Positions 23,492 through 31,864 of a DNA stretch of 64,000 nucleotides are shown piece by piece (within the stretch, counting starts at the first letter, position 1; every line of letters starts with the position of its first letter). This DNA is from a virus, in the IMG/VR virus record IMGVR_UViG_3300023174_000077, positions 1 to 64,000 of that record. One strand, given 5' to 3'. Position numbers and translations under genes: made by a program. Under the pieces are notes generated by a model. It had not been told where the DNA came from and did no database searches. It saw nothing but the letters and a program-made list of their open reading frames with translations.

Positions 23492-23968
23492 TTATTTTTT
23501 AATTTTATTTTGATAAAATATAATTTTATTAATACAATTTGAAAAAAGCCATGATTCTTGTGTTGGTAATTTAGTTAAAAAATCATATTCATACATATAG
23601 CATTCTAATTCTTCTTGATTTTCGGTTAATATAGAATTTTTTTCAAAAAAATATAAATGATGTGATTCATGTACTAAAACAGCCGCTAAATTATTAATTG
23701 AATTTAATTTCATATCTCTGTTAGTGATAACTATTGTTTTTGGCGGAACTGTTGTTGAAAAGTTGGCATAAGAGAAATCGATAGTATCACAATTATCAAT
23801 CAATTGATTATATTTATCCATATCAGTTTGTTTGATTAGATTAATTGCTGAATCTATCTTTTCTTTCCATTCTTCACCAACATTGGCCACATAAATTACT
23901 TTATTTTTTGTTGCAGAATTGAATAAAATAAGAATTGATAATAAAATTATTGTAATTTTGTTATACAT
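23492..23968 (-). CDS. Secreted HExxH zinc metallopeptidase-like protein
   Basis: 158 aa. The N-terminal hydrophobic segment TIILLSILILFNSAT is a signal peptide or anchor. Around residue 100, AAVLVHESHHLYF contains HESHH, an HExxH zinc site, with glutamates (ENQEELE) about 20 residues later that could be the third ligand. No family named. First of several exported proteins on this strand; its start overlaps the previous gene by 22 nt. Substrate and compartment beyond the cytoplasmic membrane are inferred. Confidence 0.7.
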   Translation of the reverse strand: MYNKITIILLSILILFNSATKNKVIYVANVGEEWKEKIDSAINLIKQTDMDKYNQLIDNCDTIDFSYANFSTTVPPKTIVITNRDMKLNSINNLAAVLVHESHHLYFFEKNSILTENQEELECYMYEYDFLTKLPTQESWLFSNCINKIIFYQNKIKK

Positions 23969-24402
23969 TCTTCAATAGCTTTTTTTATTGCTGATGAAAC
24001 CGTTGTTTTTGAAAATGGAATGCCAGCATCAGTTAATTCAATCATAGTTGCCCTTACTTCTGTTTCGGATTCACCTATTCCTTGATAAATTTTATCTTCA
24101 TAATATAGTTTAACACCAACTTGTGTAATTTGATCTGTTTTTTCAACACCAATAATTCTTAAAGATTTTTTTGGAATTCCAAAATAAAATACTTCAATTT
24201 TGATTGATTTGCCGTCATCTGAAAGACAAAATTTATTAGATAACATATCTTCCGCCATTTGTTTAATACCAAAGCGAACATCACGGCTACCAAGTTCTCT
24301 GACTTTAGCTGTGTTCCAAACTGAATCTACTTTAACACAAGTTTCTTGTGCGAAAAGTGTGGTTGTTGTTAAGATTAAAAAGGTTGTTAATAGTTTTTTC
24401 AT
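23947..24402 (-). CDS. Secreted small protein, CsgG-like fold (151 aa)
   Basis: Signal peptide MKKLLTTFLILTTTTLFAQ with a cleavage site typical of Bacteroidota (FAQ-E). The mature part has beta strands with VGVKLYYEDKIYQGIGE and a final helix VSSAIKKAIEECITKL. This layout resembles the last part of the CsgG-like protein at 27549, which ends in TTKKALETAASRIV. It could be a shortened paralogue. Role unknown; perhaps periplasmic or outer-membrane associated. Confidence 0.65.
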   Translation of the reverse strand: MKKLLTTFLILTTTTLFAQETCVKVDSVWNTAKVRELGSRDVRFGIKQMAEDMLSNKFCLSDDGKSIKIEVFYFGIPKKSLRIIGVEKTDQITQVGVKLYYEDKIYQGIGESETEVRATMIELTDAGIPFSKTTVSSAIKKAIEECITKLQ

Positions 24403-24404
24403 AG

Positions 24405-26162
24405 TTAATAAGATACTTTTTGTGAATAGCCTGGTGCTATAATATAATAATCTGCTGTACCACCTGTGGTAATACTAGGCAGAGTTATTGATGTGACACC
24501 TGGATAAGTTGTTTTTAAATTAGAAGTTGAGGTTGATATTGATGAAAATTGTGTTGGAGTAAATAATCTAGCAATAAAAGAATTGATCCAGTTAGAGAAT
24601 AAACCAGATTTTTTTGCTGCTATATTAAATAAATCAGAAATAGTAATTTTTGAATCATTATTCAAATCATACATATAATAATGTTTTCCGTTAAATATGG
24701 TTTTTCGTAAAATAACATCAGAAGCTTTTGTTAAATCAGTAGTGGTTAAAGTTGAGACTGGATTAACAACATCTAATTGTAATTGCCAATCAATTGAAGG
24801 ATTTGTTTGTACACTTATTGTATATAAACCATTTGTGTCTGTATAATAGGTGTTATATAATGACCAATTAGTATATGTTATAACAGAATCAAATTCTAAT
24901 ACATAATTTAAGTTAACTGTATTTGGTAAATCATTCCATAAACCACTGCTGACAAATTGAATAAAATCTTCGCCACCAGAATTATTAGGTTCTCCTCCAT
25001 GCCAATTTGAGTATGGATAAATACCATAACGAAAAGCTGAACCCATATAATTTCTATTCATTTGATCTGTTGTTAAAACATTATTATGAATTGATAAATC
25101 ACCAAGACGAAATGAGCCATAAGCACCAGAACCCATATTTGTTGCATCAGCAAGCCCAAGAGCAAAACATTCACCTCCGCCTCCTGCAACATATGGCAGT
25201 GCTCTATTAAAATTAATAGAGTTAAAATTAACACCATCTAGATAACCACGAAGAGTAGTTCCATCATATGTAAGTCCAACACAATGCCAAGCATTTAGTG
25301 TAATGGATGAAGTTACTTTTGTAATACCACCGCCATTCCAAAATCCAATATTTAATGTATTTGAGCCTGTAATTTCAATGACTGATTCATGCCATCCAGA
25401 AGATGTTGATGCTACTGATAATTCGTCTAAAATAACACCATTGCCTGTCGGATAGACCCACATTTGTATGCTTATATTTGGTGAAGTTCCAAATTTTGAG
25501 GCTAAATTAGATATAAGTGCATAATTATTTATTCCATTAAATGTTAAATATTTTCCTCCAGTTGAACTATAAGCTGGCGAATTATATAGGGTGGCGTTTG
25601 CATTTCCTTTAATATCGGTAATAGTAGTTCCTGTTCCTGGATAAGATACAGAATTCCATATTCTCATATTAGTTCCTTGCATTCCAACCCCAGGTGTAGC
25701 AGAAGTATCGTTTGTTACATGTGATATATTATACCAAAGTACTTGTCCTGTATTATAATAATTTTCTGTCCATCTCCATCCGCCATTTGCTTCAGAGTAA
25801 AAAGCACCATTTTTATCTTGGTAATAGCCTATCCAACCAGATGGCCATGTTGAATATACAAAATTATTTTCAGCGGCATTTGAAATTGTAACAAGGTGTC
25901 CACCCATTGCGGCGCAATTGTTTTGTGCTGTTGCCCAATAAGCAGTAGTTGTTGAGCGGTAATAAGAATGGTTATTATAATTTGTTTGTGATGTAAATCC
26001 TGTAAGATTTGGTGTCGTTCTTTGATATAATTTTATAGGAAAATGATTAGCACCACTGCCATCAGCGTTATAAATATGTCCAGAATATGTAAATGTTGTA
26101 GTTTGTGCGAACATACATATATGGATTAATAAAGTTATGATAGACAATATAATTTTTCTCAT
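24405..26162 (-). CDS. Secreted C-type lectin with nested LamG domain and dockerin-like repeat
   Basis: 585 aa with signal peptide (MRKIILSIITLLIHICMFAQ). Residues about 62-130 are the first half of a C-type lectin fold (YW..AQNNCAAMGGHLVTI, then WPSGWIGYYQDKNG). Residues about 205-370 are a LamG/concanavalin domain (YLTFNGINNYALIS, ISIQMWVYPTG, WHCVGLTYDGT). The lectin resumes at about 385 with NWHGGEPNNSGGEDF and GLWNDLP...YVLEF. A dockerin-like calcium loop (YDLNNDSKITISDLFNIA) lies near 500. Probably a surface carbohydrate-binding adhesin. Overlaps the next gene by 4 nt. Confidence 0.85.
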   Translation of the reverse strand: MRKIILSIITLLIHICMFAQTTTFTYSGHIYNADGSGANHFPIKLYQRTTPNLTGFTSQTNYNNHSYYRSTTTAYWATAQNNCAAMGGHLVTISNAAENNFVYSTWPSGWIGYYQDKNGAFYSEANGGWRWTENYYNTGQVLWYNISHVTNDTSATPGVGMQGTNMRIWNSVSYPGTGTTITDIKGNANATLYNSPAYSSTGGKYLTFNGINNYALISNLASKFGTSPNISIQMWVYPTGNGVILDELSVASTSSGWHESVIEITGSNTLNIGFWNGGGITKVTSSITLNAWHCVGLTYDGTTLRGYLDGVNFNSINFNRALPYVAGGGGECFALGLADATNMGSGAYGSFRLGDLSIHNNVLTTDQMNRNYMGSAFRYGIYPYSNWHGGEPNNSGGEDFIQFVSSGLWNDLPNTVNLNYVLEFDSVITYTNWSLYNTYYTDTNGLYTISVQTNPSIDWQLQLDVVNPVSTLTTTDLTKASDVILRKTIFNGKHYYMYDLNNDSKITISDLFNIAAKKSGLFSNWINSFIARLFTPTQFSSISTSTSNLKTTYPGVTSITLPSITTGGTADYYIIAPGYSQKVSY

Positions 26163-31086: not shown

Positions 31087-31118
31087 GTGTTTTTGGTTTT
31101 TTTATTTTTGGTTACATT

Positions 31119-31129
31119 TTATATATCAA
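31119..31129 (-). promoter_or_regulatory. TTGATATATAA motif (minus strand)
   Basis: Near match to the TTAATATATAA motif, 32 nt upstream of the T9SS-type gene. A similar TGATATATAAA lies just before the nuclease start at 31864. Confidence 0.4.
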
Positions 31130-31171
31130 AACTAAAAAACCAAATTTTTTATTAAAACCACAAAACACTTA

Positions 31172-31864
31172 CTAATTATTAAATTTTAGATTAGTTAATT
31201 TTTCCACCGCTTCTTTAGTAGTTTTCCATTTATCTAATCCAATTGGTTTATCTGTTGAATTATTAAAAATATAACATTCAAATGTTTTTGTTTTTACAAT
31301 ATAAATAACTTTCCAACATTTTTCAGGAATAGTTAATCCAGATACTACCATTAAACTTCCTATTGAACCACACCAAACATGAACTGAATCATTTTGTATA
31401 GCAAGTTCTCTGGTTCTTTCTTCTAATTTTTTCCAATCACCAGCATTTAAACTATGATATTGTGGTGTCATATTAGAAAAGTAAAAACATTCTGTAAGCA
31501 TTTTTTCTGCTGGAATTTTTATTCCATTTTTAGTAAAAGGACATTCATTATCTGCCGCTGGTGACATGTGTCCTCTATCAAATCCTTTTCTATTTGCATC
31601 TTTTTCAGTTTTGTTAGCAGCATCATAATTTTTTTGTATATTAGTTTGTTTTACTAAATCTGGATCTGGAGCAAATTGATCTTTCCTAGGAATTTGATTA
31701 CAACCACATCTTTCTTTTGTGTCCCACCATTCTACTAATATAGGATATTTTAGAATAGTATCAAATACTGAAATATAACCATTGTGTTCTAATTTAACAC
31801 AATTAGTTTGTGCCTTAATAAAAAATGGCATAAATAAAATTAATAATAAAAGTATGTTTTTCAT
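31172..31864 (-). CDS. Secreted DNA/RNA non-specific endonuclease (NUC family)
   Basis: 230 aa. Signal peptide MKNILLLLILFMPFFIKAQ. The catalytic motif FDRGHMSPAADN (DRGH, His as general base) is near residue 95, and downstream YFSNMTPQYHSLNAGDWKKLE supplies the metal-binding Asn and surrounding residues of the Serratia nuclease/EndoG family. WCGSIG and IPEKCWKVIY fit the fold. Predicted to cut DNA/RNA outside the cytoplasm. In a phage it might scavenge nucleotides, thin out extracellular DNA or attack competing DNA; none of these is shown. Confidence 0.9.
   Translation of the reverse strand: MKNILLLLILFMPFFIKAQTNCVKLEHNGYISVFDTILKYPILVEWWDTKERCGCNQIPRKDQFAPDPDLVKQTNIQKNYDAANKTEKDANRKGFDRGHMSPAADNECPFTKNGIKIPAEKMLTECFYFSNMTPQYHSLNAGDWKKLEERTRELAIQNDSVHVWCGSIGSLMVVSGLTIPEKCWKVIYIVKTKTFECYIFNNSTDKPIGLDKWKTTKEAVEKLTNLKFNN

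Follow-up and report, generated by a model that had tools for sequence, protein, structure and literature searches.

A conserved operon of exported proteins with a predicted T9SS scaffoldin and dockerin-tagged lectin in large viruses of Bacteroidota

Why would a large virus of Bacteroidota bacteria carry, side by side, a run of genes for exported proteins, one of which appears to be addressed to the type IX secretion system (T9SS) of its host? The question is raised by a stretch of 64,000 nucleotides (hereafter the window), positions 1 to 64,000 of the IMG/VR virus record IMGVR_UViG_3300023174_000077 (G000), a record of 122,094 bases that also encodes a T4-like tail sheath, a terminase, a DNA polymerase and a primase. 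Nine genes, all on the minus strand, lie at window positions 23492 to 31864, precisely where a first-pass annotation made from the letters alone had placed a cluster of exported proteins. These genes form a conserved and widespread operon (hereafter the cassette) of large viruses of Bacteroidota bacteria, which is also found in the cultured Flavobacterium phage immuto. We have high confidence in the anatomy of the operon as set out below, with genes lettered in transcript order, and consider its proposed role, a late-expressed surface-display operon with a glycan-binding function, to be an evenly balanced question.

31172..31864, minus strand: N, exported DNA/RNA non-specific endonuclease of NUC1/endonuclease G type, signal peptide, DRGH active site (PF01223, E=1.2e-28)
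29173..31086, minus strand: T, T9SS-exported scaffoldin (predicted): signal peptide, N-terminal beta domain, dockerin module (about 240-306), cohesin (about 408-544), T9SS type-A sorting domain (559-637)
28832..29161, minus strand: S1, small protein with one weak hydrophobic segment, then a Pro/Ala/Gln-rich tail and an invariant C-terminal Trp (alignment)
28417..28809, minus strand: S2, two-transmembrane protein, second segment near-invariant, 'NSEDRDK' motif; holin-like by shape only
27549..28271, minus strand: G1, exported CsgG-fold protein, best-conserved member (AlphaFold2 and Foldseek)
26159..27547, minus strand: B, exported; small N-terminal domain with two invariant Cys, disordered Ser/Gly/Asn linker of ~130 residues, 12-strand outer-membrane beta-barrel (AlphaFold2 and Foldseek)
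24405..26162, minus strand: L, exported lectin: C-type lectin fold (EPN/WND) with inserted LamG domain, constant C-terminal dockerin module (PF00059, PF13385)
23947..24402, minus strand: G2, exported short paralogue of G1 (hhalign)
23492..23968, minus strand: P, exported HExxH zinc-protease-like protein (invariant H, E, H and downstream Glu)

Export signals, scaffoldin and lectin modules

A strict, home-made scan for the n-, h- and c-regions of signal peptides, applied to the genes of at least 80 residues in the whole record (n=117), passed seven genes, six of them inside the interval (6/9 cassette genes; hypergeometric p = 1.8e-7). L fails the strict rule because of a histidine in its h-region, and under a looser rule signal peptides were found among the orthologues of all seven families, namely P (34/34), G2 (43/44), L (38/39), B (50/50), G1 (44/44), T (51/51) and N (11/11). 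Seven of the nine cassette genes are thus predicted to encode signal-peptide proteins, in agreement with the first-pass annotation, and these make up most of the predicted exported proteins of the record. The two small membrane proteins also listed there held up in part, as membrane segments are predicted in both S2 (two transmembrane segments) and S1 (a single weak hydrophobic segment), and neither has a signal peptide. The sole further gene in the record with a clear signal peptide, G000:C1:116659-117210, has no family match.

By its predicted modules (cohesin, dockerin and T9SS sorting domain) T is a scaffoldin and a cargo of the host T9SS. Scans with hidden Markov models of the T9SS C-terminal domain (CTD) placed the window protein above the cut-off (TIGR04183, 34.4 bits, cut-off 23; PF18962, 41.5 bits, cut-off 27), consistent with the T9SS cargo claimed from the letters alone, and Pfam domains recognised among T orthologues include the CTD (50/50), a cohesin (45/50) and a dockerin (16/50). 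Likewise, the cassette of 12/12 other records has a T9SS sorting-domain match over the cut-off, one per record except for one with a second, sub-cut-off match. A T profile searched against the PDB matched a cellulosomal scaffoldin dockerin, cellulosomal cohesins and a solved T9SS sorting domain, while a dockerin-type calcium-loop motif is present in 48/50 T and 34/38 L proteins. In immuto, T is divided into two genes whose products both start with a signal peptide; one encodes the cohesin and CTD and the other the dockerin-module region, as one would expect of parts able to reunite by docking. Three contigs carry an in-frame TGA at the same position of T with an ATG directly after it (L051:8356-8358, L055:8118-8120 and L052:1743-1745); the second half, as read in L051 and L055, has no signal peptide, and the TGA could possibly reflect readthrough or fission.

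L is, by domain content, a dockerin-tagged lectin in which variable, apparently exchangeable sugar-binding heads are joined to a constant tail. More specifically, head length ranges from 150 to 811 residues (standard deviation 161) as against 148 to 159 residues (standard deviation 3) for the tail. The heads include Lectin_C (C-type lectin; 25/38) and LamG (14/38) as well as PA14, GEVED and pentaxin domains, and in the window protein a LamG domain stands between the two halves of a C-type lectin fold with EPN and WND motifs. The tail and the dockerin module of T are homologous (hhalign 99.9%, E=2e-34), which, combined with the Pfam and PDB cellulosome matches of T, lends support to the earlier guess of a surface complex linked by cohesin- and dockerin-like parts.

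Distribution and possible exchange among viral lineages

That the cluster is a widespread conserved phage operon, often near holin and endolysin genes and with late-type promoter motifs, had been missed by the first-pass annotation, which had suggested a search in other phages. A scan of IMG/VR with a single G1 protein revealed 206 related stretches, and one with a G1 alignment at least 532 viral contigs carrying G1. The core T-S1-G1-B-L-G2 lies all on one strand in 90 of the 95 viral loci with full flanks, a set that includes near-copy contigs and represents 71 distinct G1 sequences. Across these loci G2 is present in 95/95, S1 in 94/95 and S2 in 70/95, while P occurs in cis on the same strand in 39/95 and elsewhere nearby on the opposite strand. 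N is accessory, being found within or adjoining the cassette at about 11 loci, immuto included. At the cut-off used, three contigs (L128, L131 and L132) yield G1 and G2 but no T, B or L, and their cassettes are divergent or reduced.

In the cultured phage immuto, where the set is present, annotation of its genes goes no further than hypothetical protein, lectin and cohesin. No more than a dozen proteins match between the window and immuto, and among these G1 is highest at 62% identity, compared with 30% over 201 residues for the terminase and 27% for the tail sheath. The terminases of cassette-bearing contigs fall into at least three lineages, one with the window (41-45% over 270 residues), one with immuto (57-63% to immuto) and a third apart from both (27-32%). 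G1 trees split the immuto terminase lineage between two clades, which suggests, for the few genomes concerned, that the cassette has been exchanged between lineages. The conservation of G1 and this lineage pattern may be explained by module exchange, by very strong constraint on G1, or by both. As the operon is better conserved than the terminases among distant Bacteroidota phages, it is likely to be important in infection. The cassette is essentially absent from bacterial genomes: among 84,980 species genomes two contigs match, both in metagenome-assembled genomes (MAGs), a 254-kb contig that has the core operon and one of 12 kb that carries part of this operon.

Proposed surface display and its alternatives

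We posit that Sec exports the seven signal-peptide proteins and that the host T9SS would move T outside and anchor it, while G1, G2 and B may assemble in the outer membrane to release the lectin or to hold the complex in place; the dockerin of L would bind the T cohesin. At a late stage of infection, lectins for the surface glycans of the host clade would then be displayed by the cell and afterwards by its debris. Two effects appear most likely. One is that receptor glycans might be covered, which would keep progeny from being wasted on that cell or its remains and would shut out other phages; the other is that sibling cells might be kept close by as next hosts. Superinfection exclusion and adhesion, both suggested in the first-pass annotation, are possible roles. 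We advance somewhat more tentatively the wider proposal that the cassette represents a class of mobile phage module that builds a cellulosome-like lectin scaffold on the living host via the T9SS, using a dedicated CsgG-fold/barrel export unit, and that is passed whole between distant lineages.

The proposed timing draws on upstream motifs. The word TAATATATA stands upstream of 28 of the 117 genes in the window genome (at most 11 in shuffles), including several tail/baseplate-region genes and a tail-sheath-like gene, and does not precede the DNA polymerase, the primase, the helicase at 57.9 kb or the PurZ-like gene of that genome. T and N of the window are preceded by a variant of this word:

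31119..31127, minus strand: late-type promoter-like motif GATATATAA, 41 bases before T
31868..31876, minus strand: late-type promoter-like motif GATATATAA, 12 bases before N

A T4-late-like TATAAATA precedes T of immuto, a gp20-like capsid assembly gene and two more genes of that phage that neighbour structural ones; it also precedes the gene for a single-stranded DNA-binding protein. A k-mer search upstream of T across phages returned only AT-rich words such as ATAAATA. A further phage-specific upstream motif of the G000 record, TTAATATATAA, precedes at least 20 genes, many of which belong to structural regions (e.g. upstream of window positions 49145 and 53410), and is likely a promoter.

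Lysis genes are frequent neighbours. Of 43 non-redundant loci, 26 have a GH19/peptidoglycan-binding endolysin in the 10-kb flanks, in 24 cases no more than three genes away, and 23 have a holin-like gene with two transmembrane segments, in 18 cases no more than two genes away. Combined with the motifs, this makes late expression of the cassette likely, and indicates a link to lysis that is real but not obligatory. It is also the starting point for the reading of the operon as an outer-membrane lysis module, in which S1 and S2 would act as holin and antiholin or as the inner-membrane part of a spanin-like link, G1 (with a lipobox in 14/44 orthologues and none in the window protein) and B would work at the outer membrane, P and N would dismantle the envelope and host DNA, and T and L would be secondary passengers. 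Besides the late-type motif, this reading gains from the holin-like gene and S2 being interchangeable occupants of the slot between S1 and G1, and from phage Melnitz, for whose csgGF genes a part in lysis timing has been proposed (PMC9004378). However, S2 and the holin-like gene often co-occur, and the recognisable lysis genes of both immuto (its holin and chitinase genes, some 30 kb away from the cassette) and the window record (a homologue of the holin-like gene at 64373-64660) are located elsewhere, the cassettes of these two phages containing neither holin nor endolysin. Searches of S1, S2 and the holin-like neighbour against PHROGs and Pfam gave no significant family, with no holin or spanin match for the cassette. 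Moreover, a scaffoldin, a T9SS anchor and variable lectin heads would be senseless for lysis alone, and we regard the lysis module, the chief rival reading, as unlikely though to be taken seriously.

The catalytic signatures of the two putative enzymes are retained, with HExxH and the downstream glutamates kept in 31/31 members of the P family and DRGH in 10/10 N orthologues. In two contigs S2 is extended by a long stretch with DxDxDG-type repeats and Cys-x2-Cys motifs (L018:9334-9984 and L047:9381-9971).

G1 and G2 were called CsgG-like in the first-pass annotation, and this stands for the fold and fails for the sequence. The AlphaFold2 model of G1, of modest confidence (mean predicted local distance difference test score (pLDDT) 69), has CsgG structures as its top 17 Foldseek matches in the PDB (best E=8e-9) and a phage protein annotated CsgG as its nearest match in BFVD, and G2 is a shortened paralogue of G1 (hhalign 97.4%, E=1.6e-11). 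Neither protein has a match to Pfam CsgG (PF03783), which was absent from all 13 records, nor did hhalign align G1 with E. coli CsgG, ruling out G1 as a CsgG at the sequence level. B, in turn, is modelled with 12 strands at residues 254-461, mostly at pLDDT of about 70-92, and Foldseek matches it to 12-strand barrels, among others the Fap amyloid exporter FapF. A sequence search of the PDB with G1 and B profiles gave nothing useful. Additional exported barrel-like proteins occur in or beside the cassette of some phages (L057:12679-13467 and L014:14815-15558), one of them DUF481 and one without a family.

The G1 fold, the likeness of B to FapF and the curli modules known from pelagiphages (PMC7029224, PMC9599517) would fit a curli-like (type VIII) secretion system in which G1 and G2 form an outer-membrane pore exporting fibre subunits. 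Against this, there is neither a CsgF- nor a curlin-type match among the cassette proteins in Pfam, PHROGs or NCBIfam, in addition to the missing sequence matches to CsgG itself. At the two sites of the CsgG transmembrane hairpins G1 carries a mean of 6.5 and 6.9 charged residues and about 1 aromatic residue, and in the model the second hairpin is without a return strand. Clear membrane hairpins are not seen, and these charged, aromatic-poor regions tend to point against a pore. We consider curli-like secretion improbable.

Lectin and LamG domains, and tail-spike genes nearby in the window, could also suggest virion parts, such as fibres or decorations, that happen to bear signal peptides. Cleavable signal peptides in all seven families and a T9SS anchor point towards export rather than assembly in the cytoplasm, and the immuto set lies outside the annotated structural genes of that phage, making this very improbable indeed. 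Finally, host DNA joined to a phage contig, the assembly chimera that the first-pass annotation had itself raised, or a prophage-borne host operon is refuted, as the interval is slightly richer in GC (0.29-0.33 versus about 0.26) but has the same GC at third codon positions as its neighbours, and the same gene order recurs in many independent viral contigs and immuto, with just the two MAG contigs among the bacterial species genomes searched.

Returning to surface display, several points weigh against it. L has no sorting domain of its own, leaving its passage across the outer membrane unexplained, and binding between cohesin and dockerin is presumed from homology. The window protein gave two Pfam cohesin stretches, yet hhalign did not bear out the N-terminal domain of T as a second cohesin. 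The promoter motif is AT-rich and moderately specific, and the adjacency to lysis genes at many loci is not required by a surface-display function. If the proposal is true, viruses rebuild the infected cell's surface by way of the type IX secretion system, an idea made directly testable by the cultured pair immuto and Flavobacterium sp. LMO8.

Elsewhere in the window a glycosyltransferase (18308-20176, plus strand) and a phosphoheptose isomerase (37123-37791, minus strand) are encoded, pointing to possible modification of host glycans, and immuto also carries a large glycan gene cluster. An adenylosuccinate-synthetase-like gene (35725-36933, minus strand) matches the phage 2-aminoadenine (PurZ) family phrog_1211, and the phage may carry Z-DNA.

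Relation to known phage modules and cellulosomes

A search of open-access papers returned no description of a phage combining T9SS, cohesin/dockerin, lectin and CsgG-fold components. The individual elements have precedents, and the first-pass view of phage-encoded T9SS cargo and CsgG as very unusual was overstated (PMC7468147, PMC6949934, PMC7029224, PMC9599517). Curli modules are known in pelagiphages and phage Melnitz, with sibling capture, superinfection exclusion and lysis control as proposed roles (PMC7029224, PMC9599517, PMC9004378). Like these, the cassette is a phage-borne multigene exported module with a CsgG-fold protein and a conserved gene order that moves between viral lineages; unlike them, it lacks CsgF, curlin and a Pfam CsgG match, its G1 apparently lacks the CsgG pore hairpins, and it combines Bacteroidota hosts with T9SS, cohesin/dockerin and lectins. 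T9SS-tagged cargo is on record for Cryophage (PMC7468147) and for phages with crAss-BACON repeats (PMC6949934), and T resembles it as a phage product with a T9SS type-A sorting domain that presumably uses the host T9SS. Those cargoes are single variable enzymes or BACON proteins, whereas T is one conserved scaffoldin in a fixed operon.

The likeness to the cellulosome lies in profile-recognised cohesin and dockerin modules and in a scaffold with exchangeable dockerin-tagged partners, although here the partner is a lectin and not a cellulase, the anchor is a T9SS domain and the whole is phage-encoded. Receptor-blocking phage products at the outer membrane are known from Llp of phage T5 and similar proteins, Llp being a single small periplasmic lipoprotein. 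The cassette product would similarly keep both its own progeny and rivals off the receptor, but would do so with a surface scaffold and a lectin.

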